Made by a program: the position numbers and the translations under genes. The notes beneath the pieces were generated by a model. It ran no database searches and was not told the DNA's origin. It was given only the letters and a program-made list of their open reading frames with translations. Below, one piece after another: positions 525 through 60,856 of a DNA stretch of 64,000 bases (position 1 is the first letter of the stretch; each line of letters begins with the position of its first letter). This stretch comes from Streptomyces antimycoticus (GTDB taxonomy: Bacteria > Actinomycetota > Actinomycetes > Streptomycetales > Streptomycetaceae), in the NCBI RefSeq assembly GCF_005405925.1, contig NZ_BJHV01000001.1, positions 4,526,001-4,590,000 of the forward strand, read 5' to 3'.

Positions 525-1837
525 GCCAGGCCCTCCAGTACCTCCGCGAGTGCGGCCACACCGGCGAGGCAATCGTCCTCGCCCGCCGTCTCCGCGGGTG
601 AATGCGAGACGCCGGTGGGGTTCCTTACAAACAGCATGGCCGTAGGAACGGACGCGGACAAAATGCCGGCGTCGTGCCCGGCCCCGGTCGGCAGCACCGG
701 AACGCCGCCCAGCAGCCCGGACAGCCGGTCCCGGAGGTCGTGGGCGAACTCGACGACCGGGGTGAACGACTCCCGGGTGACCCGGACGTCCACCCCGTCG
801 CGCTCCCCGCGCTCGAGCGCGGCGCGCTCGATCTCGCCGACCACGGCGGCCAGGGTCTCCTCGTCGGCGGCGCGTGAGTCCAGCCAGCCGCGGACCAGGC
901 TCGCGATCGCGTTGACCCCGTTCGGCTCGACGCTGACCTTGCCGAACGTCGCCAGCGCCCCGGCGATCCTGGCCTTCTTACGGGCCGCGAGGACGGTGTT
1001 GGCGTAGGTGAGCATCGGATCGCGGCGGTCCTCGATCCGGGTCGTCCCGGCGTGGTTGGCCTCGCCGTGGAAGTCGAACCGCCAGCGGCCGTGCGGCCAG
1101 ATCGCGGACGCGACGCCCACGGCGTCGTTCGTGTCCGCCAGGGCACGCCCCTGCTCGATGTGCAGCTCGACAAACGCGCCGATGCGGGCCAGCCGCTCCG
1201 GGTCGGGCCCGATGGCGTCCGGATCGTATCCGGCGCGCTCCATCGCCTGGGGGAGGCTCAGCCCGTCCGCGTCGCGCAGCTGGTGCGCCTGGTCCGTGGT
1301 GAGCTGCCCGGCGGTCAGCCGGGAGCCCACGCAGGCCAGACCGAAGCGGGCGCCCTCCTCATCGCCGAAGTTGACGATGGCGAGCGGTTTGGTGGGGTGC
1401 GCACCCCGTGCTCGCAGCTCGTCGAGGGCGGCGAAGGAGGAGACGACGCCCAGCGGGCCGTCGAAGGCGCCGCCGTCGGGGACGGAGTCGAGGTGGGAGC
1501 CGGTGACCACGGCGTTTCCGGCGGTGGGGTCACCCAGCCAGGCCCATTGGTTGCCGTTGCGATCTACTTCGTAGGTGAGGCCGCGGGTTTGGGCTTGCTC
1601 CTTGAACCACGTTCGGCAGTCGGCGTCGGCTTCCGTCCAGGCGTAGCGGCGGTAGCCGTTTGTTGTTGTGTTGCGGCCGATGGGGGCCAGGTCGCGCCAC
1701 ATCTCGTGGAACGACGCGCTTGTGGTCGCGGGTGCGCCTGCCGCCGCCGGTCCTTCCGTTTCGTGGGCGGGTGCGGCCGAGTGGGTGGGTTGTGCCCACC
1801 CGTCCCGCCCCGCGGGACGATTGCCCACAACACTCAC
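515..1837 (-). CDS. M20-family Zn amidohydrolase (allantoate amidohydrolase / N-carbamoylase type) in the hut operon
   Basis: Binuclear-zinc amidohydrolase of the hydantoinase/carbamoylase branch of peptidase family M20. Visible metal-ligand motifs are [15 protein letters not shown] and GDEEGARFG, followed by [10 protein letters not shown], the dimerisation lid [10 protein letters not shown] and a C-terminal GAGHDAG. The GTG start overlaps the hutU stop (GTGA), with GAGGGAAG a few bases upstream. The first 40 or so residues are low complexity; the family core starts near SFHEMWRDL. Such proteins are usually annotated as allantoate amidohydrolase. Lying between hutU and hutF, with no recognisable hutG here, it more plausibly hydrolyses N-formylglutamate; that role is inferred from context. 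Confidence 0.85.
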
Positions 1838-3492
1838 TGCGCTTCCCTCATCGGGATGCGGACGTCTCGTTCCTCCGCCACCTCGTCCGCGCGGTCGTAG
1901 CCCGCGTCCACGTGGCGGATCACACCCATGCCGGGGTCGTTCGTCAGCACCCGGCGGATCTTCTCGCCCGCCAGCGCCGTGCCGTCGGCGACCGTGACCT
2001 GGCCCGCGTGGATCGAGCGGCCCATGCCGACTCCGCCGCCGTGGTGGATGGAGACCCAGGACGCGCCCGAGGCCACGTTGACCATGGCGTTGAGCAGCGG
2101 CCAGTCGGCGATCGCGTCCGAGCCGTCCAGCATGGCCTCGGTCTCGCGGTACGGGGAGGCCACCGAGCCGCAGTCGAGGTGGTCGCGGCCGATCGCCAGC
2201 GGTGCGGCGAGCGTGCCGTCGGCGACCATCTCGTTGAAGCGCTCGCCGGCCTTGTCGCGCTCGCCGTAGCCGAGCCAGCAGATACGCGCGGGCAGCCCCT
2301 GGAAGTGGACCCGCTCCCCCGCCATCTTGATCCAGCGGGCCAGCGACTCGTTCTCCGGGAAGAGCTCCAGCATCGCCTTGTCCGTGGCCGCGATGTCCCT
2401 CGCGTCGCCGGACAGGGCGGCCCAGCGGAAGGGGCCCTTGCCCTCGCAGAAGAGCGGCCGGATGTAGGCGGGCACGAAGCCGGGGAAGGCGAAGGCGCGG
2501 TCGTAGCCCGCGAGCTGGGCCTCGCCGCGGATCGAGTTGCCGTAGTCGAAGACCTCGGCGCCCGCGTCCATGAAGCCGACCATGGCCTCCACGTGGCGGG
2601 CCATCGCCTCGCGCGCCCGCTGGGTGAAGTCGGCGGGCTTCTCGGCGGCGTACGACGCCATCTCGTCGAAGTCCACGCCGATCGGCAGATACGCCAGCGG
2701 GTCATGGGCGCTGGTCTGGTCGGTGACGATGTCGATCGGGGCGTTCATCGCGAGGAGCTGCGGGACCAGCTCGGCCGCGTTGCCCAGCACGCCGATCGAC
2801 AGGGGGCGCCGGGCGTCGCGCGCCTCGGTGGCCAGCTGCAGGGCGTGGTCCAGGCTGTCGGCGCGGACGTCCAGGTAGCGGTGCTCGATACGGCGCTCGA
2901 TGGCGCGCGGGTCGCAGTCGATGCAGATCGCGACGCCGTCGTTCATGGTGACCGCCAGCGGCTGGGCGCCGCCCATGCCGCCGAGGCCCGCGGTGAGGGT
3001 GATCGTTCCCGCCAGGGTGCCGTTGAACTTCTTGGCCGCCACGGCCGCGAAGGTCTCGTAGGTGCCCTGGAGGATGCCCTGGGTGCCGATGTAGATCCAG
3101 GACCCGGCGGTCATCTGGCCGTACATGGTCAGGCCCAGCGCCTCCAGGCGGCGGAACTCCTCCCAGTTGGCCCAGTCGCCGACCAGGTTGGAGTTGGCGA
3201 TCAGCACCCGCGGCGCCCATTCGTGCGTCTGCATGACGCCCACCGGGCGGCCCGACTGGACCAGCATCGTCTCGTCCTGCTTGAGCGTGCGCAGGGTGCG
3301 GACCATGGCGTCGAACGAGCGCCAGTCGCGGGCCGCCTTACCGGTGCCGCCGTAGACGACGAGCTTGTCGGGGTGCTCGGCGACCTCCGGATCGAGGTTG
3401 TTCTGCAGCATCCGCAGGGCGGCTTCCTGCTGCCACCCCCGAGCGCTGAGCTCTGCACCACGCGGCGCCCGTACGGGTCGCGGTCCTGTCAT
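1834..3492 (-). CDS. hutU: Urocanate hydratase HutU
   Basis: Second enzyme of histidine degradation: NAD+-dependent hydration of urocanate to imidazolonepropionate. The protein is about 552 aa, the usual family length, and starts [12 protein letters not shown]. The central region has the NAD-binding [14 protein letters not shown] segment, and the C-terminal region carries [22 protein letters not shown] at 3492 was chosen over longer in-frame starts because GGGAGG lies 9 bases upstream and the family N-terminus begins here. It is first gene of the leftward operon hutU, M20 amidohydrolase, hutF, with overlapping stops and starts. The 10-bp palindrome at 3554-3563 lies in its promoter region. 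Confidence 0.96.
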
Positions 3493-3553
3493 GGGGCCAA
3501 GCCTCCCTGCCATCGATTGGATCGAGTTATTCACATCTTGATGCCGATGAATA

Positions 3554-3563
3554 TGACTAGTCA
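3554..3563. promoter_or_regulatory. Candidate hut operator (palindrome TGACTAGTCA)
   Basis: A perfect 10-bp palindrome lies about 60 bp upstream of the hutU start. On the minus strand it begins with TTGACT, which could serve as the -35 box of the hutU promoter, so a bound regulator would block RNA polymerase. Which protein binds is not visible in this window. The divergent reductase gene begins about 130 bp away on the other side. Confidence 0.4.
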
Positions 3564-3692
3564 ATACCGTGGAGCTGCACATACACCCGGGTGGTTCAGC
3601 GGCGCGGGCTCGCGGGGACGCGACCGGCCCTGTCCGGCCCCCCGGGGTAGCGTCACCGGGAGGTGTCCGCTCCGCCCGCCGAGGAGCCCCGC

Positions 3693-6021: not shown

Positions 6022-6927
6022 ATGGCGGAGAGCGCGAATCGGCTGGGTGAGTATCTGCGGGCGCGCCGCGAGCTGGTGCGGCCCGAGGACGTCGGGCTGC
6101 CCGCCGTGGGGCGGCGCCGGGTGCCCGGGCTGCGCCGTGAGGAGCTCGCACTCCTCGCGGGCATCAGCAGCGACTACTACCTGCGGCTGGAGCAGGGCCG
6201 CGACCGCCACCCCTCCGAGCAGGTGCTCGACGCCCTGGCCCGCGTGCTGCGGCTCGACGACGACGCCACCGCCCATCTGCACCGGCTGGCCCGCCCCGCG
6301 CCCCGCCGCCGCCGTCCGCGGCGGCCGGAGCGGGTGCCCGCCGGGATCCAGCAGCTCGTGCGGTCCTGGACGCGGAACCCCGCCTTCGTCCAGAGCCGCT
6401 ATATGGACATCCTCTTCGCCAATCCGCTGGCCATCGCCCTCTCCCCGCTCTGCAGACCCGGTGTGAACGTGGTCCGCGCGCTCTTCCTCGACCCGGAGAT
6501 CCGCGAGGCGCACGGCAGCGACGCCACCACCGCCGGTGTCGTGGCCGGTCTGCGCGCGCTCGTCGGCCCCGATGTCGACGATCCGCCCCTCGCCGAGCTG
6601 GTGGGTGAGCTGTCGGTCAGGAGCGAGCGGTTCCGGCGGTTGTGGGCCCGCCATGACGTCAAGCCCAAGGCCGGCGCCGGTACGTCCACCTTCCGGCACC
6701 CGCAGATCGGCCCGATCGAGCTGAGCTACGAGAAGCTGGCCGTCACCGGCACCGAGGGCCAGCTCCTGGTGGTCTACCACGCCGCCCCGGACAGCCCCGC
6801 CGAACAGGCCCTGGCGCTGCTGTCGGGGCTCGCGGCCGACGCCGGGCAGGACTCCCGGAGCGGCCCCGGGAGCGGCCCCGGGGCAGTTGGTCCGCAGCCG
6901 TCCCCGGATGGTTGGCTGAGGTCATGA
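6022..6927 (+). CDS. XRE-family regulator with MmyB-like ligand-binding domain
   Basis: Transcription factor of 301 aa. The N-terminal helix-turn-helix (residues 10-75) contains the family signature RRVPGLRREELALLAGISSDYYLRLEQGRDRHPSEQVLDALARVL. The rest is the MmyB-like ligand-binding domain (RYMDILFANPLAIAL, then FRRLWARHDV and the ending PIELSYEKLAV...LVVYHAAPDSPAEQAL). Such regulators usually control an adjacent SDR gene, here the divergent one at 4801-5741, probably through the repeated element between them. The stop overlaps the next start (ATGA at 6924). Confidence 0.93.
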   Translation: MAESANRLGEYLRARRELVRPEDVGLPAVGRRRVPGLRREELALLAGISSDYYLRLEQGRDRHPSEQVLDALARVLRLDDDATAHLHRLARPAPRRRRPRRPERVPAGIQQLVRSWTRNPAFVQSRYMDILFANPLAIALSPLCRPGVNVVRALFLDPEIREAHGSDATTAGVVAGLRALVGPDVDDPPLAELVGELSVRSERFRRLWARHDVKPKAGAGTSTFRHPQIGPIELSYEKLAVTGTEGQLLVVYHAAPDSPAEQALALLSGLAADAGQDSRSGPGSGPGAVGPQPSPDGWLRS

Positions 6928-8288
6928 CATCGAAACCGGTGGCGATGGCCGCCCGGCGCGAACGGGCCGTTCGGGCCGCCGTGGAGCAGGGGCTGCTGGG
7001 CCCGGATCGGCCCGTCGTCGGGCTGCTGGACGTGGCCGGGATCCGCGCCGCCGCCGCCGAACTGCGCGCGGCCTTCGAGGACGTCGTCACGCCCGGCACC
7101 CCCGTGCTGCACGCCTTCGCGGTCAAGGCCGCCGCGCTCGTCCCGGTCCTGCGGCTGCTGGCCGACGAGGGCCTGGGCTGCGAGGTGGCCAGCCCCGGCG
7201 AGCTGGCGCTGGCCCGCGCGGCGGGGGTGACGCCCGACCGGATCGTCCTGGACTCCCCCGCCAAGACCCCAGCGGAGCTGCGCGAGGCCCTCGACCTGGG
7301 CATCGCCGTCAACGCCGACAACCCGCAGGAGCTGGACCGGCTCGGCGCGCTGGTGGGGGACAGCGCGGACCCGCCCGCGCCCCTGGGCCTGCGGATCAAC
7401 CCGCAGGTGGGCGGCGGCAGCATCGACGCGATGAGCACGGCCACCGCGACCTCCAAGTTCGGCGTCGCCCTCCAGGACCCGGGGGCGCGCGAGTGGGTCG
7501 TCCGCGCCTTCGCCGAACGCCCCTGGCTGACCCGGCTGCACGCCCACGTCGGCTCCCAGGGCTGTCCCCTGGAGCTGATGGCGGCGGGCATACGGGTGGC
7601 CTACGAACTGGCCGAAGAGATCAACGGGGCGGTCGGCCGGCAGCAGATCGACGCCCTCGACATCGGCGGCGGCCTCCCGGTGAACTTCGCCTCCGACGAG
7701 ATCACCCCCAGCTACCGGGAGTACGCACAGCTCCTGCGGACCACCGTGCCGGGGCTCTTCGACGGGCGGTACAAGCTGGTCACCGAGTTCGGACGGTCCC
7801 TCCTGGCCAAGTCCGGCCTGGTGCTGGCGCGGGTCGAGTACGCCAAGTCCGCGGGCGGCCGTCCGATCGCGGTCACCCACGCGGGCGCCCAACTCGCCAC
7901 CCGTACGGTCTTCGCCCCCGAGGCCTGGCCCCTGCGCGTCACGGCCTACGACCCGGAGGGCCGCCCCAAGGCCGGGGGCTCCTCCGACGGCCAGGTGCCC
8001 CAGGACATCGCCGGTCCCTGCTGTTTCGCGGGCGACCTGGTCGCCCGCGACCGGCCCCTGCCTCAGCTGGCGGCGGGCGACCTGGTCGGCCTGCTGGACA
8101 CGGGCGCGTACTACTTCTCCAACCACTTCGCGTACAACAGCCTGCCCCGCCCCGGGATCTACGGCTTCGACGCCACGAACGGCGACGGCGAGGTGCGCTT
8201 CGCGACGGTGCGGGAGCCGCAGACGGTGGACGAGATCGTGGCCGAGAGCGGCGCGGCACATGCACTGGGGCTCAGCCGCCTGCGGTAG
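6924..8288 (+). CDS. Fold-type III PLP-dependent decarboxylase-like protein (Y4yA / diaminopimelate decarboxylase family)
   Basis: 454-aa alanine-racemase-fold enzyme. The Schiff-base lysine lies in HAFAVKAAALVPVL; GCEVASPGELALA, HAHVGSQG, DIGGGLPVNF and the C-terminal LVGLLDTGAYYFSNHFAYNSLPRPGIYGF are hallmarks of the diaminopimelate/ornithine decarboxylase superfamily. It is more like the Y4yA subgroup than true LysA, so its amino-acid substrate is uncertain. The ATG start overlaps the regulator's stop by 4 bp, so the two are co-translated and the gene is probably in the regulator's transcript. Confidence 0.8.
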   Translation: MTSKPVAMAARRERAVRAAVEQGLLGPDRPVVGLLDVAGIRAAAAELRAAFEDVVTPGTPVLHAFAVKAAALVPVLRLLADEGLGCEVASPGELALARAAGVTPDRIVLDSPAKTPAELREALDLGIAVNADNPQELDRLGALVGDSADPPAPLGLRINPQVGGGSIDAMSTATATSKFGVALQDPGAREWVVRAFAERPWLTRLHAHVGSQGCPLELMAAGIRVAYELAEEINGAVGRQQIDALDIGGGLPVNFASDEITPSYREYAQLLRTTVPGLFDGRYKLVTEFGRSLLAKSGLVLARVEYAKSAGGRPIAVTHAGAQLATRTVFAPEAWPLRVTAYDPEGRPKAGGSSDGQVPQDIAGPCCFAGDLVARDRPLPQLAAGDLVGLLDTGAYYFSNHFAYNSLPRPGIYGFDATNGDGEVRFATVREPQTVDEIVAESGAAHALGLSRLR

Positions 8289-10934: not shown

Positions 10935-11960
10935 TCATTCCACGAACAGCCCCCGCTCCGCCGCCTTCGCGTCGAACTCCTCCAGCCGCGCCTGCGCCTC
11001 CGGCAGCGCGTCGCACATCGCCTCCAGCAGCACCCGCCCCAGCAGCATCGGCGCACACGCGGTGTCGAAGGCCAGGCCCGTGCCGACCGCCGCGGGCAGC
11101 AGCAGATCGCTGTGGCGGGCGATCGGGGCGAAGGCGCTGTCGGCGACGGCGACCACGGTCAGGCCCGCCTCCTGGGCGTACTCCAGACCCTCCACGACCT
11201 CCCGCGGATGCCGCGGCAGCGCGAAGCACAGCAGCGCCGTCGCGCCCGCGCGCTTCGCCGCGTCGACGCGGTCGGCGAGCATCGTTCCGCCCTCGTCGAG
11301 CAGCCGCACGTCCGGATGGACCTTGCGCGCGAAGTAGGTGAAGCCGCGCGCCTGCGCGGAGGCGGCGCGCAGCCCGAGGACCAGCAGCGGGCGGGAGTCG
11401 GCGAGCAGCCGGCCGGCCCGGACGACGGGGGCGGGGTCGGCCAGCAGCGCGGCGAGATGGCGCAGATTGTCGATCTCGGACTGCACGGCCTGCTGGTACT
11501 CGTTGTACGACCCCTCGTCCGCCTCCGGCTCGGCGGGGGCGACATCGCGCAGATGCTTGCGCAGTGCCGGATAGCCGTCGAAGCCGAGGGCGACCGCGAA
11601 GCGGGTCACGGACGGCTGGCTGACGCCCGCGAGTTCGGCCAGCTCGACGCTGGAGAGGAACGGCGCGTCCGCGGCCCGCCGCACCATGCAGTGGGCGATC
11701 CGCCGCTGGGTCGGGGTCAGCCGGTGGCCCTCGAAGAGCGCCTGCAGCCGAGCGGCGGTCGAGGCACCGGAAGCGGTCGAGGCGACCGAACCAGTCGAAG
11801 CGCCCGAACCCGTCGTAGCGATCGAGCCGCCCGCGCCATCCGCACCGGCGGAGCCACCCGCCCCCACCGAGACCCCCGGCGGCGCCACCGCGACCTCCTC
11901 GGCCGCGGGCGCCATCCGAGCACCGCTCACCCCGTCGCTCACCCCATTGTCCGTACTCAT
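10935..11960 (-). CDS. RpiR/MurR-family transcriptional regulator (HTH + SIS)
   Basis: 341-aa regulator. A low-complexity Ala/Ser/Gly/Thr N-terminus (residues 1-70) precedes the HTH_6 domain (RLTPTQRRIAHCMVRRA...LAELAGVSQPSVTRFAVALGFDGYPALRKHL) and a C-terminal SIS domain (VLGLRAASAQARGFTYFARKV...LLCFALPRHPREVVEG...ADSAFAPIA). SIS domains usually bind a phosphosugar, but RpiR proteins also control other catabolic clusters. ATG 11960 has AGGAGG 5 bases upstream. It follows the ammonia-lyase-like gene by about 30 bp on the same strand and probably regulates it and the divergent importer. Confidence 0.9.
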   Translation of the reverse strand: MSTDNGVSDGVSGARMAPAAEEVAVAPPGVSVGAGGSAGADGAGGSIATTGSGASTGSVASTASGASTAARLQALFEGHRLTPTQRRIAHCMVRRAADAPFLSSVELAELAGVSQPSVTRFAVALGFDGYPALRKHLRDVAPAEPEADEGSYNEYQQAVQSEIDNLRHLAALLADPAPVVRAGRLLADSRPLLVLGLRAASAQARGFTYFARKVHPDVRLLDEGGTMLADRVDAAKRAGATALLCFALPRHPREVVEGLEYAQEAGLTVVAVADSAFAPIARHSDLLLPAAVGTGLAFDTACAPMLLGRVLLEAMCDALPEAQARLEEFDAKAAERGLFVE

Positions 11961-11991
11961 CGCGTCCTCCTGACCCTCGTACCCTCGTCCC

Positions 11992-13518
11992 TCATACCCC
12001 CGCCAGCCGGTCGAGCAGGCGCGCGGCCACCGCCACATCCTCCGTCAACGGCCGGTCCTCCATCCGGGGATCGAGCACTTCCGACGCCATGGCGAAGGCG
12101 ACACCGGCCGGGAGCTCCGGGTCCGGTTCCAGACCGCGCTGACGCAACGCCCGTACGGCCGCGACAAGTTCGCAGCCCAGCACCAGCCGGTAGTGGTCGG
12201 CGACGCGGAGCGTCTGGCGGGCGCCGAGCGAGGCGAAGCTGGCCTGTTCCTCGACACCGCGGGAGAGCACGGCATGCCCCAGCGAGGCGGGGTGGGAGAC
12301 CGCGCGCATCTCGCCGAGGGCGGCCCCCGCCGCGTATTCGAGGATCATCACGCCCGAGCTGGCGGGCGCGGCGTCGCCGAGGAAGGGGCGCAGCCGGGTG
12401 AAGTCGGGTTCGCTGAGCGCGGCGAGCCGGGCCGTGGAGAGCCGGGCGGTCTGCAGCGCGGCGAGCCGGAAGGCGTCCAGGGCGAGGGCGGCGTGCGCGG
12501 CGTAGAAGTTGCCGTGGTGGTAGGCGGCCTCGTCGGCGGAGCTGATCAGCGGGTTCTCGGTGGCCGCGTTGAAGTCGACGGTCAGCACCCGCTCCAGCGC
12601 CTCCGCCGCGTCCAGCGCCGGTCCGTGGATCTGCGGCAGACAGCGGAAGCCGTACGGGTCCTGTATGCGCCCGAGCGGCGGGGTGGGCCGGGCCGGGGCG
12701 CCGAGCAGGGCGCGCATCCGGGCGGCGGCCTCGACGGAGCCGGGGTGCGGCCGGGCGGCGTGCACGGGTTCGGCGTACGCCTCGTACGACCCGCCGACCG
12801 CGATCAGCGAGAGCGCGGCCACCGAGAGCGAGGCGGACAGCAGCCGCTGCAGCTCGGCGAGGGCGAGCGCGGACTGGCCGAGGGTGAGGGCGTTGCTGCT
12901 GATGAGCGCGAGGGCGTCGTTGCTGTCGAGCACGATCGGGTCGGGGGCGCGACGGCCCGGGGCGACCTCGGTGAGGTCCCAGGGGTGCTCGCCGACGAGC
13001 GCGAGACCGGTCTGGGCGAGCGCGGCGAGGTCCCCGGTGCCGACCGCGCCGTATTCGTTGATCACCGGGTGGGCGCCGCTGTCGAGCCCCTCGACGAGCG
13101 CGGTGACGACGGCGGGGCGCAGCCCGGCGCCGCCCGCCAGCAGCTGATTGGCGCGGACGGTCATCATGGCGCGCACCTCGCGCGCGGGCAGCGGTGCGCC
13201 GATCGCGCCGGCGTGGCTGCGCAGCAGCCGCAGCCCGTGGTCGGAGTCGGCCGGGCCGACGTCCTCGGTACGGTTGGCGCCCACGCCGGTGCTCCGGCCG
13301 TAGACGCGGCCGGTGGCGGCCAGCCGATCCGCGGTCTCCCAGGCGCGCTCGGCCAGGGCGAGCGCGGTCGGGTCGGGCGCCGCGGGCCGGCTGATGCGGT
13401 CGGCCAAGCGGGCGATATCGACGACGCGTAGGCTCCGGCCGTCCAGTGTGATCCGCTGAGCTGTGCCGCCTGTGCCCTCGGCCGCCGCGGCATCAGCATC
13501 CAGCATGTGAGACAACAT
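11992..13518 (-). CDS. Aromatic amino acid lyase (HAL/PAL family) paralogue with altered MIO motif
   Basis: 508-aa member of the histidine/phenylalanine ammonia-lyase family. Family landmarks are YGRSTGVGANR (catalytic-Tyr loop), QDPYGFRCLPQIHG, DFNAATENPL, HHGNFYAAH and GVEEQAS. The MIO-forming segment is unusual: canonical G-x-x-G-(A/C)-S-G-D-L is here GAVGTGDLAAL, with Thr161 in place of Ser and one residue fewer. Authentic HutH is encoded separately at 59312-60856. ATG 13518 has GAGAGGGG 9 bases upstream. It is divergent from a betaine-type importer and followed by an RpiR gene. The substrate may be a histidine derivative such as a betaine; that is inference. Confidence 0.82.
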   Translation of the reverse strand: MLSHMLDADAAAAEGTGGTAQRITLDGRSLRVVDIARLADRISRPAAPDPTALALAERAWETADRLAATGRVYGRSTGVGANRTEDVGPADSDHGLRLLRSHAGAIGAPLPAREVRAMMTVRANQLLAGGAGLRPAVVTALVEGLDSGAHPVINEYGAVGTGDLAALAQTGLALVGEHPWDLTEVAPGRRAPDPIVLDSNDALALISSNALTLGQSALALAELQRLLSASLSVAALSLIAVGGSYEAYAEPVHAARPHPGSVEAAARMRALLGAPARPTPPLGRIQDPYGFRCLPQIHGPALDAAEALERVLTVDFNAATENPLISSADEAAYHHGNFYAAHAALALDAFRLAALQTARLSTARLAALSEPDFTRLRPFLGDAAPASSGVMILEYAAGAALGEMRAVSHPASLGHAVLSRGVEEQASFASLGARQTLRVADHYRLVLGCELVAAVRALRQRGLEPDPELPAGVAFAMASEVLDPRMEDRPLTEDVAVAARLLDRLAGV

Positions 13519-13594
13519 CCAGGGCAACCCCTCTCAAAACGCCCATTCCGGGCCAGCCGCCAGGGCACTTCGTCCACATCGCGAGCAGAAGTAA

Positions 13595-13679
13595 CCGGTG
13601 ATTAACGCAAACCTCTTGACTTCTATTCACTCGACTATGACTGTGCATGACTATATGCAGACAGGGCAAGGGGAAGCGG
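13595..13679. promoter_or_regulatory. Divergent promoter/operator region of lyase-like gene and ABC importer
   Basis: On the plus strand TTGACT at 13616 resembles a -35 box. Downstream is ATGACT, then TGCATGACTATATGCA (arms TGCAT and ATGCA), immediately before the importer's Shine-Dalgarno AGGGGAAG. The motif TATGACT also occurs in the hutU promoter (ATATGACTAGTCA at 3551). A regulator, possibly the RpiR protein encoded at 10935, may bind here. Confidence 0.4.
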
Positions 13680-14869
13680 ATGATCAGCTTCAAGGACGTC
13701 AGTAAGCACTACCCGAACGGCACCACAGCCGTGGACCGACTCAGCCTCGAACTCCCGGAAGGGGGCATCACGGTTCTTGTCGGCTCGTCGGGCTGCGGCA
13801 AGACCACCACCCTCCGCATGGTCAACCGCATGGTCGAGCCGAGCAGCGGCACGGTGAGCGTGGCGGGGCGTGATGTCCTCGCGGCGGACGCCGCCGAGCT
13901 GCGGCGCGGGATCGGCTATGTGATCCAGCAGGCCGGGCTCTTCCCGCACCGTACGATCCTCGACAACATCGCCACCGTCCCGCTGCTGCTGGGCTGGGGC
14001 CGCCGCAAGGCGCGGGCCCGCGCGGCCGAGCTGCTGGAGCTGGTCGGGCTGCCCGGCGACTCCGGCAAGCGCTATCCGCACCAGCTCTCGGGCGGTCAGC
14101 AGCAGCGCGTCGGGGTCGCCCGCGCGCTGGCCGCCGATCCGCCGGTGCTGTTGATGGACGAGCCGTTCGGCGCGGTCGACCCGGTCGTACGGACCCAGCT
14201 CCAGAACGAGCTGCTGCGGCTGCAGAGCGAGCTGCGCAAGACGGTCGTCTTCGTCACCCATGACATCGACGAGGCGGTACGGCTCGGCGACCGCATCGCG
14301 ATCTTCCGCACCGGCGGCCATCTCGTCCAGTGCGCACCCCCCGCCGAGCTGCTGGCGAGCCCCGCCGACGACTTCGTGGCGGGCTTCCTGGGCGCCGAGC
14401 GCGGGCTGAAGCTGCTCTCCCTGTCCACCCTCGGGACCTGCCACAGGAGCCCGTCCCCGCCGATGGGGACCGCTGGCGGCTGGTCACCTCCGAGCGCGGT
14501 GAGCCGCTGGGCTGGCGCGACACCGAGGGGCCGGAGGGCGACCGGGCGCCACTGCTGCCGGTGCGGGCGCTGCGGGACGGCGATTCGCTGCTCACCGCCC
14601 TGGACGAGTCGCTGGCCTCCCCCGCCGGCCTGGTGGCCCGCGTGGACGCCGACGGCGTCCTGACCGGGGTCACCGGGCGCGCGCGGATACACGAGTTCGC
14701 GGGACGCCGCCACGCGGAGGCGGGCCGCGCGGCGGCCCTCAAGAACGCCACGGAAGCCGCCGAAGCCTCCCGGGCCGCCGAGACCCGTGGCGAAGCCGAC
14801 GACGAGGGCACCCAGGGCTCCGCGGGCTCCGACGACACCCCGGCCTCCGACCCGAGCGTGACCGCATGA
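13680..14869 (+). pseudogene. Betaine-type ABC importer ATPase (OpuBA/ProV-like), frameshifted in this sequence
   Basis: ATPase of the quaternary-amine/osmoprotectant importer class. It has Walker A GSSGCGKTT, the Q-loop, signature LSGGQQQRVGVARALA, Walker B VLLMDEPFGAVDP and the switch His in FVTHDIDEA. A C-terminal extension with CBS-like character (WRLVTSERGEPLGW...GLVARVDADGVLTGVTG) is read in another frame. The frame changes at about 14433-14435, where one more G gives STLGDLPQEPV, so a base is probably missing from the sequence. ATG 13680 has AGGGGAAG upstream. The stop overlaps the permease start (ATGA), so the operon continues. Confidence 0.85.
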
Positions 14870-15507
14870 CCGTCGACTGGGGCTGGTTCCCCGATCACCA
14901 AAGCGACCTGGTCACGCTCACCCTCGACCACCTCTCCACCGCCGTCCCCGCCGTCCTCTTCGGCCTGCTGATCGCGCTGCCGCTGGCCGTCATCGCCCAC
15001 CGGGTGCGCGCCCTGCGCGGACTCCTCCTCGGGCTCTCGAACATCCTGTTCACGATCCCGTCCATCGCGATCTTCGTCCTGCTGCTGCCGATCACCGGCC
15101 TCACCCGCACCACCGCCATCACCGGCCTGACCATCTACACCCTGGTCGTGCTGCTCCGGAACACCGTCGAGGGGCTCGACAGCGTCCCCACCAAGGTCCG
15201 CGAGGCGTCCACCGCGATGGGCGCCCGTCCGCTGCGCACCCTGCTCACCGTCGAGCTGCCGCTCGCCTTCCCGGTGATCATGGCGGGCGTACGGGTCGCC
15301 ACGGTGATGGCGATATCCCTGGTCAGCGTGGCCAGCTACATCGGGTACGGCGGTCTCGGCCAGCTGTTCACCGACGGCTTCCAGCGCAACTACCCCACCC
15401 CCGTCGTGGCCGGGGTCCTCCTGTCCCTGCTGCTCGCGCTGGTCGCGGACGCCGTGCTGGTCACCATCCAGTGGCTGTGCACCCCGTGGCTGAGGAGGCG
15501 TGCCTGA
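14866..15507 (+). CDS. Betaine-type ABC importer permease 1 (OpuBB/OpuCB-like)
   Basis: 213-aa inner-membrane permease with about five or six transmembrane segments. It carries the BPD_transp EAA loop (REASTAMGARPLRTLLTVELPLAFPVIMAGVRVATVMAI) and the FTIPSIAIFVLLLPITGLTR segment typical of OpuCB/OpuCD. The start overlaps the ATPase stop and the next permease begins 1 bp after its stop, so the subunits are co-translated. The imported compound cannot be read directly; the class imports glycine betaine, choline, proline or histidine betaines. Confidence 0.9.
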   Translation: MTVDWGWFPDHQSDLVTLTLDHLSTAVPAVLFGLLIALPLAVIAHRVRALRGLLLGLSNILFTIPSIAIFVLLLPITGLTRTTAITGLTIYTLVVLLRNTVEGLDSVPTKVREASTAMGARPLRTLLTVELPLAFPVIMAGVRVATVMAISLVSVASYIGYGGLGQLFTDGFQRNYPTPVVAGVLLSLLLALVADAVLVTIQWLCTPWLRRRA

Positions 15508-15508
15508 C

Positions 15509-16186
15509 ATGATCGAACTGCTCAAGGACCTCCTCCGCTGGCTGACCAGCGGCTCCCAGTGGTCCGGGACCGACGGCATCGGGACCCGCCTCCTGGAACA
15601 CCTCCAGTACTCGCTGCTGGCCACCCTGGTCGCCGCCGCCATCGCCCTCCCGGTCGGGCTGCTCATCGGCCACACCGGACGCGGCGCGTTCCTCGCCATC
15701 AACCTCTCCGGCTTCGGGCGGGCACTGCCCACCGTCGGCCTGGTCACCCTGGTCTTCCTGGCCAGCGGGCTGAGCATGTGGCCGGTGTACATCTCGCTGG
15801 TCGCCCTCGCGGTCCCGGTGATCGTCACCAATACGTACGCGGGCATGGCCGCCGTCGACCCCGAGGTCCGGGACGCGGCGCGGGGCCAGGGCATGCGCTG
15901 GTACCAGGTGCTGTTCCAGGTCGAACTGCCCCTCGCGCTCCCGCTGATCATGACCGGGCTGCGGCTGGCCTGCGTCCAGGTCGTCGCCACCGCCACCATC
16001 GCCGCGTACGTCAGCTTCGGCGGGCTCGGCCGCTACGTCTTCGACGGGCTCGCCCAGCGCGATCTCGTGCAGGTGCTGGGCGGGGCCGTGCTGGTCGCCG
16101 TGCTGGCCATCGCCCTGGACCTGGCGCTGGCCGGAGTGCAACGCCTGCTGTTCCGCAACCGCCCCCCGCGCGCCCACGCGCACTGA
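15509..16186 (+). CDS. Betaine-type ABC importer permease 2 (OpuBD/OpuCD-like)
   Basis: 225-aa second permease of the importer. The EAA loop reads RDAARGQGMRWYQVLFQVELPLALPLIMTGLRLA, followed by TIAAYVSFGGLGRYVFDGLAQRD. Hydrophobic segments such as YSLLATLVAAAIALPVGLLIG and VGLVTLVFLASGLSMWPVYISLVALAVPVIV span the membrane. ATG 15509 is chosen over GTG 15500 because GAGGAGG lies 10 bases before it and the GTG would touch the Shine-Dalgarno. With permease 1 it forms the membrane heterodimer. Confidence 0.9.
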   Translation: MIELLKDLLRWLTSGSQWSGTDGIGTRLLEHLQYSLLATLVAAAIALPVGLLIGHTGRGAFLAINLSGFGRALPTVGLVTLVFLASGLSMWPVYISLVALAVPVIVTNTYAGMAAVDPEVRDAARGQGMRWYQVLFQVELPLALPLIMTGLRLACVQVVATATIAAYVSFGGLGRYVFDGLAQRDLVQVLGGAVLVAVLAIALDLALAGVQRLLFRNRPPRAHAH

Positions 16187-16223
16187 CGTCACCGACTCAC
16201 TCCGGATCCGAGGAGAGCACCCC

Positions 16224-17162
16224 ATGAACCGCAGGAAACTGCTCGGCGGCCTGCTCGCCGGCGCCTCCGTACCCGCGCTGGCCGCCTGTAGCGGCGGCGT
16301 CACCTCGCTCAAGGGCGACGGCGGCAGCGGCGGCTCGGGCGGCGGCAGCAGCCTGGGCGGCCTGGTCATCGGCACCGCCAACTTCACCGAGAACCAGCTG
16401 CTGGGCTATCTCTACGCCGAGGCGCTGAAGGGCGCGGGCATCAAGACGAGCGTGCGGCCCAACCTCGGCTCCCGCGAGATCGTCATCCCCGCCCTCCAGC
16501 AGGGCGATATCGATCTGCTCCCCGAGTACCAGGGCAATCTGCTGCTCCACTTCGACGACAAGGCTCCCCAGACCGAGGCCGGGGACCTCCAGAACGCCCT
16601 CACCGTCGCCCTCCCCAGCGGCCTGGAAGCCCTGTCGTACGCGGCCGCCGAGGACAAGGACGTCTTCTGCGTCACCCATGAGACCGCGCAGAAGCACGGT
16701 CTGCGCAGCTTCGCCGACCTCGCCAAGCAGAACGGCAAGCTGGTCTTCGGCGGCCCGGCCGAGGACAAGAAGCGCGTGGTCGGCCTGGTGGGCCTCAAGG
16801 ACCGCTACGGCGTGACCTTCAAGGAGTTCAAGGCCCTCGACGCCTCCGGCCCCCTGGTCAAGGGCGCGTTGAAGAAGGGCGATGTCGACGTCGCCAACCT
16901 CTTCTCCACCGACCCCGACATCGAGGCCAACGACTGGGTGATCCTCGCCGACCCCAAGGCCCTCATCCCCGCCCAGCACATCGTGCCCGTCGTCCGCTCC
17001 GCCAAGGCCGACACCAAGGTCCGCAAGGCCCTGGCCCGCCTGGGCGGCGCCCTCACCACCCAGGAACTGGCCCGGCTCAACAAGCTGGTGAGCAACGACA
17101 AGAAGGACCCGGACCGGGTCGCCGCCGACTGGGCCGCCAAGAACGGCCTCACCAAGAAATAG
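16224..17162 (+). CDS. Betaine-type ABC importer substrate-binding lipoprotein (OpuBC/OpuCC-like)
   Basis: 312-aa lipoprotein. MNRRKLLGGLLAGASVPALAAC gives a Tat-like signal with lipobox LAAC, then a Gly/Ser linker. The OpuAC-type domain shows IGTANFTENQLLGYLYAEALKGAGI, LGSREIVIPALQQGDIDLLPEYQGNLL and a C-terminal ALARLGGALTTQELARLNKLV. It captures the substrate outside the membrane and hands it to the two permeases. GAGGAGAG precedes the ATG. The pocket residues cannot be assigned by eye, so betaine, choline, proline or histidine-derived ligands all remain possible. Confidence 0.9.
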   Translation: MNRRKLLGGLLAGASVPALAACSGGVTSLKGDGGSGGSGGGSSLGGLVIGTANFTENQLLGYLYAEALKGAGIKTSVRPNLGSREIVIPALQQGDIDLLPEYQGNLLLHFDDKAPQTEAGDLQNALTVALPSGLEALSYAAAEDKDVFCVTHETAQKHGLRSFADLAKQNGKLVFGGPAEDKKRVVGLVGLKDRYGVTFKEFKALDASGPLVKGALKKGDVDVANLFSTDPDIEANDWVILADPKALIPAQHIVPVVRSAKADTKVRKALARLGGALTTQELARLNKLVSNDKKDPDRVAADWAAKNGLTKK

Positions 17163-17178
17163 CGGCAGGAGCACCCTT

Positions 17179-18654
17179 ATGCCCGAATCCCCCGCCTCCC
17201 GCGACTCCCACGACTCCCGCGACGCCCTCGACTCGCTCGTCGAGAAACGCTCGATCGACGTCGTCCCCGACGCGGAGCGCCATGGCACCGCCTTCAGCCA
17301 GTTCACCCTGTGGCTCGGCGCGAACCTCCAGATCACCGCCGTCGTCACCGGCGCGCTGGCCATCGTCTTCGGCGCGGGCGCCTTCTGGTCGATCATCGCC
17401 CTGCTGCTCGGCAACCTGCTCGGTGGAGCCGTCATGGCGCTCCACTCGGCGCAGGGCCCCCGGCTCGGCCTCCCCCAGATGATCTCCTCCCGGGCCCAGT
17501 TCGGGGTCCGGGGCGCGATCGTCCCGCTGCTGCTGGTCATCGTCATGTACGTGGGATTCTTCGCCAGCGGCAGCGTGCTGGCGGGCCAGGCGGTCGGCGA
17601 ACTCACCCATCTCGGCGACACCACCGGGATCATCCTCTTCGCCCTCATCACCGGCGTGGCGGCCGCCGTGGGCTACCGCCTGATCCACACCCTGGGCCGG
17701 ATCGCCGGCGTGGTCTGCGCCCTGGCCTTCGTCTACCTGGGTATCCGACTGCTGGACCGCACCGACCTGGCCACCCTGCTCCACGACCGGACCTTCGACT
17801 TCCCGCTGTTCCTCCTCGCGGTGTCGCTGTCCGCCTCCTGGCAGCTCGCCTTCGGCCCGTACGTCGCCGACTACTCCCGCTACCTGCCGCGCACCACCTC
17901 CCCCAAGGCCACCTTCTCCTGGACCCTGGCCGGCACCGTCCTCGGCTCGCAGTGGTCCATGACCTTCGGCGCCCTCGCGGCCGCCGCGGCCGGCCACGCC
18001 TTCGTCGGCAACGAGGTCTCCTACATCGTCGGCCTCGGCGGCGGCGCGGCCGTGATCACCTCACTGCTCTACTTCGTCATCGCCCTCGGCAAGCTGACGA
18101 TCAACGTCCTGAACACCTACGGCGGCTTCATGTCGATGGTGACCAGCATCAGCGGCTTCCGCGGCAAGGCCACCCTCTCCCCGCGCGGCCGGGCCGCCTA
18201 CATCGCCGGGATCATGGTCGCGGGCACGGCGGTCGCGCTGCTCGGCAAGAACAGCTTCCTGTCCTCCTTCAAGGACTTCCTGCTGTTCCTGCTGACCTTC
18301 TTCACCCCGTGGAGCGCGATCAACCTCGTCGACTACTACGCCATCGCCAAGGAGCGCTACGACATCCCCGCCCTCAGCGACCCGGGCGGCCGCTACGGCG
18401 CCTGGCGCTGGAAGGCCCTGTCCACCTACGCCGTGGGCGTCCTGGCCCAACTCCCCTTCCTGTCAACGCACTTCTACACCGGCCCCCTCGTCGCCCCGCT
18501 GGGCGGCGCGGACATCTCCTGGCTCGTCGGCCTCGCCATCCCCGCCGCCCTCTACTGGCTCCTGGCCCACCGCGACACCGCCCACGTCCCCGACCACATG
18601 ATCCTCGCCCCGGAGCCGTCCCCCGACCGGCCGTACGCCACCGAGCCCGGGTGA
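17179..18654 (+). CDS. NCS1-family purine/cytosine permease-like transporter
   Basis: 491-aa secondary transporter with about 12 hydrophobic segments. The N-terminal motif VEKRSIDVVPDAERHGTAFSQFTLWLGANLQI and GPRLGLPQMISSRAQFGVRG are signatures of NCS1 nucleobase:cation symporters (cytosine, purine, hydantoin, allantoin). It begins 17 bp after the binding protein, with GGCAGGAGC as ribosome site, so it is probably the last gene of the importer operon. An uptake system for a second, ring-containing substrate or a breakdown product would fit beside an ammonia-lyase-like enzyme. Confidence 0.88.
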   Translation: MPESPASRDSHDSRDALDSLVEKRSIDVVPDAERHGTAFSQFTLWLGANLQITAVVTGALAIVFGAGAFWSIIALLLGNLLGGAVMALHSAQGPRLGLPQMISSRAQFGVRGAIVPLLLVIVMYVGFFASGSVLAGQAVGELTHLGDTTGIILFALITGVAAAVGYRLIHTLGRIAGVVCALAFVYLGIRLLDRTDLATLLHDRTFDFPLFLLAVSLSASWQLAFGPYVADYSRYLPRTTSPKATFSWTLAGTVLGSQWSMTFGALAAAAAGHAFVGNEVSYIVGLGGGAAVITSLLYFVIALGKLTINVLNTYGGFMSMVTSISGFRGKATLSPRGRAAYIAGIMVAGTAVALLGKNSFLSSFKDFLLFLLTFFTPWSAINLVDYYAIAKERYDIPALSDPGGRYGAWRWKALSTYAVGVLAQLPFLSTHFYTGPLVAPLGGADISWLVGLAIPAALYWLLAHRDTAHVPDHMILAPEPSPDRPYATEPG

Positions 18655-59311: not shown

Positions 59312-60856
59312 TCAGTCCAGGCGGCCCGTCACCGACTCCACGGCATCGATCAGCTCGCCGGATCGGACGAACGCGTCCGCCGCCGCCAAGTCGGGCGCCA
59401 GATAGCGGTCCCCGCCCGGCCCTTCGACGCCCGCCCGGCGCACCGCCGCCAGCACCGCCCGGCTCGCGGGCGCGGGCTCCAGCCCCTCGCGCAGCTCGAC
59501 GCCGCGGGTGGCGGCGACCAACTCGACGGCCAGGACACGGGCCAGGTTGTCCACCGCCGTACGCAGCTTGCGCGCCGCCGACCAGCCCATCGAGACATGG
59601 TCCTCCTGCATCGCGGAGGACGGGATGGAGTCGACCGAGGCGGGCACCGCCAGCCGCTTCATCTCGCTGACCAGCGCCGCCTGGGTGTACTGGGCGATCA
59701 TCAGCCCCGAGTCCACGCCCGGGTCGCCGGCCAGGAAGGGCGGCAGGCCGTGGGAGCGGTTCTTGTCCAGGAGCCGGTCGGTGCGGCGCTCGGCGATCGA
59801 GGCGAGGTCGGCCGCCGCGATGGCGAGGAAGTCCAGGACATACGCCACGGGGGCGCCGTGGAAGTTGCCGTTGGACTCCACCCGACCGTCCGGCAGGACG
59901 ACGGGGTTGTCCACGGCGGAGGCCAGCTCGCGGTCGGCGACCAGCCGGGCGTGCGCGAGGGTGTCCCGGCCCGCACCCGCGACCTGCGGGGCGCAGCGGA
60001 TCGAGTACGCGTCCTGGACGCGCGGCGCGTCGTCCTGGTGGTGCCCGGTGAGCCCCGAACCCTCCAGCACCCGCAGCATGTTGGCGGCGCTGGCGGCCTG
60101 CCCCGGGTGGGGGCGGATGGCGTGGAGCTCGGGCGCGAGGACGCGGTCGGTACCGAGCAGCGCCTCCAGCGAGAGGGCGGCGGTCACATCGGCGACGGTG
60201 AACAGCCGGGCGAGATCGGCACAGGCCATGATCAGCATGCCGAGCATCCCGTCCGTGCCGTTGAGCAGCGCGAGCCCCTCCTTCTCGCGGAGCTCGACCG
60301 GCTCGATGCCGTGCTCGGCCAGCAGCTCGCCGGCCTGCCGGACCACCCCGTCCGGGCCCTCGGCCTCGCCCTCGCCCATCAGGGTCAGCGCGCAGTGGGA
60401 CAGCGGCGCGAGGTCCCCGGAGCAGCCCAGCGAGCCGTATTCGTGCACCACGGGGGTGATCCCCGCGTTGAGGAGTGCGGCCATCGTCCCGACCACGACG
60501 GGCCGGACCCCGGTACGGCCGGACGCGAGCGTCTTCAACCGCAGGAACATCAGCGCCCGCACCACCTCGCGCTCGACCCGCGCGCCCATGCCGGCGGCGT
60601 GCGAACGGACGATGTTGCGCTGCAGCTGGGCGCGGAGCTCGGGGCTGATATGGCGTACGGCGAGCGCGCCGAAGCCGGTGGAGACGCCGTAGACGGGCTC
60701 GGGCTTGGCGGCGAGATCGTCGATCACCTGCCGCGAGGCCGAGACGGCCTCGAGCGCCGCCTCGGAGACCTCGACGCGCGCGGCGCCGCGTGCCACGGCG
60801 ATGACATCGTCGGCGGTCGTTCCGGACGTCCCCACGACCACAGAGTGCATATCCAT
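59312..60856 (-). CDS. hutH: Histidine ammonia-lyase HutH
   Basis: 514-aa enzyme, the first step of histidine degradation (histidine to urocanate plus ammonia). It has the canonical MIO triad in GSLGCSGDLAPLSH, catalytic Tyr in YGVSTGFGALA, QDAYSIRCAPQV, NGNFHGAPVAY and QEDHVSMG. It supplies urocanate for hutU at the left end of the window; hutH stands apart from hutU/hutF in Streptomyces. It differs clearly from the paralogue at 11992. ATG 60856 is the chosen start; ATG 60850 is possible. Confidence 0.96.
   Translation of the reverse strand: MDMHSVVVGTSGTTADDVIAVARGAARVEVSEAALEAVSASRQVIDDLAAKPEPVYGVSTGFGALAVRHISPELRAQLQRNIVRSHAAGMGARVEREVVRALMFLRLKTLASGRTGVRPVVVGTMAALLNAGITPVVHEYGSLGCSGDLAPLSHCALTLMGEGEAEGPDGVVRQAGELLAEHGIEPVELREKEGLALLNGTDGMLGMLIMACADLARLFTVADVTAALSLEALLGTDRVLAPELHAIRPHPGQAASAANMLRVLEGSGLTGHHQDDAPRVQDAYSIRCAPQVAGAGRDTLAHARLVADRELASAVDNPVVLPDGRVESNGNFHGAPVAYVLDFLAIAAADLASIAERRTDRLLDKNRSHGLPPFLAGDPGVDSGLMIAQYTQAALVSEMKRLAVPASVDSIPSSAMQEDHVSMGWSAARKLRTAVDNLARVLAVELVAATRGVELREGLEPAPASRAVLAAVRRAGVEGPGGDRYLAPDLAAADAFVRSGELIDAVESVTGRLD

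Follow-up and report, generated by a model that had tools for sequence, protein, structure and literature searches.

A lyase without the MIO tripeptide in Streptomyces antimycoticus, predicted to release trimethylamine from hercynine

The window analyzed here is a stretch of 64,000 nucleotides from Streptomyces antimycoticus (contig NZ_BJHV01000001.1 of assembly GCF_005405925.1), whose genome of 11.17 Mb lies in three contigs, and our subject is a PF00221 lyase gene on its minus strand together with the regulator and importer genes that surround it. We predict from the sequence that this gene encodes a hercynine trimethylammonia-lyase that forms urocanate and trimethylamine independently of the 4-methylideneimidazole-5-one (MIO) electrophile, and we give this reading a probability of about 0.7. 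In the proposed reaction, an active-site tyrosine would take the beta proton of hercynine (N-alpha-trimethylhistidine), a retained histidine and glutamate at the ring end would hold the imidazole, and the quaternary ammonium, a good leaving group, would depart without an MIO electrophile; the resulting urocanate would proceed to glutamate through the hut pathway. In some actinobacteria, hercynine would itself arise from ergothioneine through a thiol dioxygenase and a sulfinate desulfinase, with genes next to that of the lyase. We infer substrate, product, mechanism, and regulation from computed features, namely gene content, loss of MIO, conserved residues, and genomic linkage.

MIO-dependent enzymes form their electrophile from an Ala/Cys-Ser-Gly tripeptide. 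At this site the window lyase reads GAVG-TG-DLA, compared with GSLGCSGDL in the HutH of the same strain, and the tripeptide is absent from all 242 aligned rows of its clade (GTGD in 239, GTAD in 3), which comprise database and locus proteins and, compared over their last 300 residues, include 220 distinct sequences. Because the serine is always gone and the glycine is not fixed, a ring derived from the threonine is disfavored. Residue positions here follow the numbering of Pseudomonas putida histidine ammonia-lyase (HAL). Tyr53 is kept in 239 of the 242 rows (the other 3 have gaps), Q277, R283, and E414 are each kept in all 242, and Asn195 is replaced by Ser throughout. At the imidazole end, 31 rows of the GTG type carry S82 in 30 cases (T in one) and H83 and E414 in every case, and a comparison of 65 proteins finds these three residues common to HutH and the GTG clade. 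Six MIO-containing proteins resembling phenylalanine or tyrosine ammonia-lyases have H, L, and Q at positions 82, 83, and 414, and the other two MIO-containing rows have S, H, and Q (an aminomutase) and A, V, and Q (one further protein). The loss of MIO combined with the retained imidazole-end residues thus describes a histidine-type site minus the group that expels ammonia.

The window lyase, which matches PF00221 with 377 bits and whose closest named relatives are Streptomyces proteins, has the fold and the S82/H83/E414 residues in common with HutH (TIGR01225). It differs from HutH in the missing MIO tripeptide, in Ser for Asn195, and in its score of 291.5 bits against the NCBIfam hutH model (TIGR01225), which does not reach the cut-off of 539.15; by these measures, it is not HutH. 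An initial annotation of this DNA had pointed to a separate true HutH elsewhere in the window, which we confirmed (694 bits to TIGR01225). That annotation made no argument from MIO and left the substrate class wide, including hydantoins and aromatics; the missing MIO serine, the nearby HutU, and a frameshift in the importer ATPase are features beyond it.

We surveyed the neighborhoods of lyases of this GTGD clade by gene calling and clustering at 41 loci (the Nonomuraea locus L033 and 40 others) and at 80 named GTDB loci, where L072 of the first set and L156 of the second are the same locus, leaving 120 distinct loci. Genes for HutU, HutF, or HutI lie within about 9 kb of the lyase at 17/41 and 35/80 loci; the named loci with hut genes belong to Streptomyces, Kribbella, Dactylosporangium, Actinoallomurus, Actinomycetospora, and an Actinomycetota metagenome-assembled genome, and their gene orders differ. 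In the window, HutU lies 8.4 kb from the lyase, with its amidohydrolase at 515 to 1837. Both HutU proteins that were scanned score as true urocanate hydratases (863 and 900 bits) and fall below the thiourocanate hydratase cut-offs, the window HutU scoring 649.6 against a cut-off of 930.

A thiol-dioxygenase-like gene paired with one for an amidohydrolase-fold, desulfinase-like protein occurs near the lyase at 12/41 and 8/80 loci (20 of the 120 distinct loci). The dioxygenase-like protein matches PDB entry 8qfl, deposited under the name "Cysteine dioxygenase," with an E value of 9e-78, compared with 1e-5 or worse for other cysteine dioxygenases, and the desulfinase-like protein belongs to no Pfam family and has weak PDB matches to metal-dependent decarboxylases. 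The 8qfl protein is reported to be an ergothioneine dioxygenase whose desulfinase partner yields trimethylhistidine (hercynine) and SO2, and the Seebeck group reportedly described such an actinobacterial pathway of ergothioneine dioxygenase and sulfinate desulfinase in 2024. The predicted product of that pathway is the predicted substrate of the window lyase. One locus (L249) brings together an importer, a lyase, the dioxygenase/desulfinase pair, HutU, and HutH in about 16 kb. At the Actinoallomurus spadix locus (L151), the order is importer, lyase, LacI regulator, EgtD (391 bits to PF10017), EgtC (above the TIGR03442 cut-off), an EgtB-type gene (FGE and DinB), one further gene, and the desulfinase-like and dioxygenase-like genes. 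This egt linkage supports a tie between the lyase and ergothioneine independently of the identities proposed for the dioxygenase and desulfinase.

Among 150 Streptomyces genomes, the lyase is present in 61 (E value of 1e-100) and the dioxygenase in 12 (E value of 1e-45). All 12 dioxygenase-bearing genomes carry the lyase (P = 1e-5, uncorrected for kinship), and in 5 of them the two genes are on different contigs or megabases apart. In a class-wide sample of 296 genomes, the lyase (E value of 1e-65) was found in 23, that is, in 8 of 16 dioxygenase genomes versus 15 of 280 others (P = 3e-6, again uncorrected for kinship). The eight exceptions disfavor an obligate link between lyase and dioxygenase. 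A search of the S. antimycoticus genome found no dioxygenase ortholog (best match, 5e-15 and 36% identity), in which it differs from the dioxygenase/desulfinase pathway, so this strain would use hercynine directly. It carries an EgtD-type gene and therefore probably makes hercynine itself, in which case the lyase would need to be kept under control.

Several observations weigh against the assignment to hercynine. The identities of the ergothioneine dioxygenase and the sulfinate desulfinase are putative, and 8 of the 16 dioxygenase genomes in the class sample have no lyase at an E value of 1e-65; in two of these eight, G202 and G232, the single PF00221 gene has a HutH-like score. Neither hut genes, nor an importer, nor the dioxygenase/desulfinase pair lies near the lyase at 33/80 named and 8/41 other loci, some of which are cut short, and the hut linkage in Streptomyces may in part be old synteny. 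The cage of the window substrate-binding protein (SBP), described below, is not that of the ergothioneine importer EgtU.

Within positions 10935 to 18654, the genes for an RpiR regulator and the lyase run leftward on the minus strand and those for an importer of the quaternary amine transporter (QAT) class and an NCS1 permease run rightward on the plus strand. Every gene named in the initial annotation was found in place, divergent from one intergenic region (approximately 13519 to 13679), and the HTH_6, PF00221, ABC ATPase, OpuAC, PF02133, and both BPD_transp_1 matches passed their Pfam cut-offs. The features are as follows.

10935..12038, minus strand: RpiR-family regulator (HTH_6 and a weak SIS match); the ATG at 11960, just past the lyase stop, is the likelier start
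11992..13518, minus strand: PF00221 lyase without MIO, predicted hercynine (histidine betaine) trimethylammonia-lyase (Pfam match, residues, tree)
12235..12255, minus strand: VEEQASF segment with the E414 equivalent (residue comparison)
13024..13050, minus strand: MIO-site segment GAVGTGDLA; the HutH counterpart is G.xGASGDL or G.xGCSGDL
13207..13221, minus strand: RSHAG segment with the S82 and H83 equivalents (P. putida HAL numbering)
13519..13679, no strand: intergenic divergent promoter region common to both units
13644..13659, no strand: conserved palindrome TGCATGACTATATGCA, putative regulator operator (motif comparison)
13680..14663, plus strand: QAT-type ABC ATPase (Pfam), reading frame broken near 14434 and continued within 14330-14869
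14866..15507, plus strand: QAT-type ABC permease 1 (BPD_transp_1)
15509..16186, plus strand: QAT-type ABC permease 2 (BPD_transp_1)
16224..17162, plus strand: OpuAC substrate-binding lipoprotein, cluster F-III binder fold, atypical cage (Pfam OpuAC, fold)
17179..18654, plus strand: NCS1-family permease (PF02133)
1834..3582, minus strand: HutU urocanate hydratase, predicted next enzyme (TIGR01228, 900 bits)
59312..60856, minus strand: true HutH with a CSGD MIO site (TIGR01225, 694 bits)

The genes for permease 1, permease 2, the lipoprotein, and the NCS1 permease are separated by 1, 37, and 16 bases. The lipoprotein (174 bits to OpuAC) has both the OpuAC domain and the F-III fold of the QAT class, and the NCS1 permease scores 199.2 against PF02133 (cut-off, 23.5) and 129.2 against TIGR00800, below the cut-off of 353.1. 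Compared with two near relatives, the ATPase gene lacks one base near 14434, which puts its last 76 or so residues in another frame and cuts off the normal C-terminal part; the nucleotide-binding domain precedes the interruption and is intact. This frameshift may be an assembly error. At the positions equivalent to EgtU 244, 293, 339, 341, 419, and 443, the window SBP has F, Y, D, D, F, and Q, differing from EgtU (PMC9732360) at the equivalents of G244, F293, Y341, and Y443. The EgtU specificity residues G244 and F293 and its Tyr/Asn cage are absent, and the window cage, without two tyrosines, is neither the EgtU pocket nor the usual aromatic cage.

The QAT importer and the NCS1 permease, both of putative ligand, probably supply the substrate of the lyase. 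Among the grounds that the initial annotation had named for abandoning its proposal was a lyase gene that is not co-conserved, which the loci do not bear out: a QAT importer adjoins the lyase at 25/41 and 35/80 of them, the pairing recurring across several genera, and does not at the rest. The importer could instead be an ordinary osmoprotectant or histidine importer standing beside the lyase by chance, an explanation that we find possible while leaning against it. Matches to the window SBP (E value of 1e-35) occur in 122 of the 296 class genomes versus 23 for the lyase, so that the same type is common without it; of 19 SBP neighborhoods away from a GTGD lyase, 16 have no lyase-family gene and none has a HutU, HutF, or HutI match, and in Kribbella the importer genes come after HutH-HutU. 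The remaining three (L223, L229, and L239), however, carry another MIO-less lyase, and a comparison across the superfamily also argues against chance.

For that comparison, PF00221 matches in 128 genomes were divided into HutH-like high scorers and others, and 15 MIO-minus and 38 MIO-plus genes were classified, the 38 being those fetched of about 80 listed. PF00221 fragments lacking the MIO region (G204, one G216 piece, G229, G261, G164, a G168 piece, and G198) were left out, as was one row of G219 below the cut-off. An OpuAC-type lipoprotein lies within about 9 kb of 12/15 MIO-minus versus 0/38 MIO-plus genes (P = 2e-9), or 12/15 versus 2/38 if matches to permeases only are counted (P = 1e-7), where the genes are not independent and the MIO-minus ones belong mostly to the GTGD clade. 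Among the MIO-minus genes, that of G168 sits on a 3.4-kb contig with no room to see an importer and was scored as lacking one, and the importer of G219 was taken from locus L082; the MIO-plus gene of G178, scored as importer-less, is one of the two permease-only cases and has an OpuAC match about 7 kb away.

These results divide the claim of the initial annotation that an amine is eliminated from an imported histidine-derived betaine. The lyase part is well supported by the loss of MIO, the pocket, and the hut, dioxygenase, and egt linkages. The importer part, in which the importer would carry the same betaine, is less secure, given the atypical pocket and the occurrence of this SBP type in many Actinomycetes without the lyase.

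MIO-less lyases of other types were also seen. The AAD, ASD, SAG, and AAG types have Arg instead of His at position 83, making other substrates likely there. The lyases at L037:7830-9335 (Rhizobium leguminosarum pRL12) and L189:7872-9368 (Rhizobium sp. CCGE531) read GSIGAADL with Arg83, and that of L037 adjoins a QAT importer whose cage is mostly normal, as well as genes for a coenzyme A (CoA) transferase, a short-chain dehydrogenase/reductase, and MaoC; both are possible betaine lyases for a non-imidazole aromatic betaine. L239:14125-16544 (genome G087) holds a lyase gene of the GSIGASDL type, which is followed immediately by a desulfinase-like gene and lies 2 to 4 kb from a QAT importer. The SAG/AAG type stands by QAT importers at L223:12550-14052, L229:5269-6753, and L249 from 8997 on, where it sits between the dioxygenase/desulfinase pair and HutU.

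The known precedent for such a loss of MIO is ergothionase, which PMC13405746 describes as an enzyme without MIO that converts ergothioneine to trimethylamine and thiourocanic acid. The Treponema denticola ergothionase (PDB 6s7j) has the histidine ammonia-lyase fold without MIO, as does the window lyase, and the ergothionase-type gene L036 (Agrobacterium pAtA6) likewise has a betaine importer nearby. L036 is a presumed ergothionase, judged by its gene neighborhood, and serves as a proxy only. Its MIO loop reads GSVGY---L, in contrast to GxxGT-GDL in the window clade. In an unrooted tree of 65 proteins, with L036 standing in for 6s7j, the GTGD clade (100/100) stands apart from a clade (98/98) that unites the Y-deletion type of L035 and L036 with a Priestia gene and lies inside the MIO-plus side; the AAD, ASD, SSD, and AGD types group together (97/96), and the SAG/AAG type is a weak sister of GTGD (89/87). 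Read without a root, a single split sets GTGD, SAG/AAG, and AAD/ASD enzymes apart from the MIO-plus side; because the Y type is nested in that side, MIO-less enzymes would have at least two origins. The Y-type deletion is also found at the MIO site of two genes annotated as hutH, L186:5878-7416 (Priestia aryabhattai p-LAD2) and L035:7917-9401 (Aminobacter), whose names are probably wrong.

It is unlikely that the window lyase is itself a true ergothionase forming thiourocanate and trimethylamine from ergothioneine. The GTGD clade is separate from the ergothionase-type clade tested (the T. denticola enzyme being outside the tree), the two hydratase partners scanned at window-type loci score as true HutU and below the thiourocanate hydratase cut-offs, unlike the ergothionase setting, and a co-encoded dioxygenase and desulfinase would strip the sulfur first. 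On these sequence comparisons, the best reading is that the window lyase would work like ergothionase but lies outside the ergothionase-type clade tested.

We consider it rather more doubtful still that the lyase acts on another N-alpha-methylated or substituted histidine, such as dimethylhistidine or an N-tau-methylated form, and that the importer is fitted to the same ligand. The histidine-type pocket of the lyase is compatible with such a substrate, and Asp and mostly Gln or Glu at the two positions of the EgtU cage tyrosines would suit a less methylated, cationic amine. However, these SBP residues are widespread without the lyase and therefore say little about its substrate, and a less methylated amine is, by established chemistry, a poorer leaving group without MIO. 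Very improbable is a lyase fold without lyase catalysis, or with another reaction such as addition, whose position near hut genes is left over from a duplication of HutH. The loss of MIO and Asn195 and a possible old synteny of the hut genes in Streptomyces favor it, but Tyr53, Q277, R283, and E414 are kept as given above, other genera repeat the hut linkage in different gene orders, and the dioxygenase link holds in five genomes where the genes are not adjacent.

Returning to the hercynine lyase, a broader proposal seems to us as open to doubt as to belief: that enzymes of the histidine ammonia-lyase superfamily without MIO have changed from eliminating ammonia to eliminating quaternary amines, the MIO-less types (GTGD, SAG/AAG, AAD/ASD, and Y-deletion) repeatedly adjoining QAT importers and having at least two origins in our tree, and that the GTGD clade, present in 61 of 150 Streptomyces genomes, is a hercynine lyase closing an aerobic route from ergothioneine through hercynine and urocanate to glutamate in actinobacteria that also make ergothioneine. 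If so, the lyase would supply a missing step in actinobacterial ergothioneine recycling, connecting the turnover of ergothioneine with the hut pathway and with the release of trimethylamine in soil, and many Streptomyces genes now called "aromatic amino acid ammonia-lyase" or "histidine ammonia-lyase" would be misnamed betaine lyases. A cofactor loss that can be read from sequence would then predict leaving-group chemistry, and how ergothioneine producers also degrade ergothioneine would become directly testable.

The RpiR gene adjoins the lyase in most Streptomyces loci, and its product in the window scores 43.1 bits against HTH_6 (cut-off, 28.3) and 21.1 against SIS (cut-off, 25). The window has no second match to the palindrome TGCATGACTATATGCA when up to 2 mismatches are allowed, and 17 of 100 shuffles also gave at least one match. 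Counted by eye, 45 of 124 regions, all 45 from Streptomyces, have the palindrome in the same position ahead of the lyase; the 124 include 2 regions of HutH genes and one locus that entered twice. No excess of similar sites was found in the rest of the genome. We infer that the palindrome is a putative operator of the RpiR protein, which would probably control both divergent units through this common site.

Other arrangements were seen among Streptomyces loci. In L077, L079, L091, L092, L094, and L098 (and in part L093), the lipoprotein gene adjoins the lyase, and the ATPase and permease genes lie beyond a set encoding a sensor kinase, Roadblock, DUF742, and ATP-binding proteins. The window also encodes a pyridoxal phosphate-dependent decarboxylase of the Orn/DAP/Arg type at 6924-8288, and 15 of the 44 clustered loci, the window included, have a relative of this gene near the lyase.
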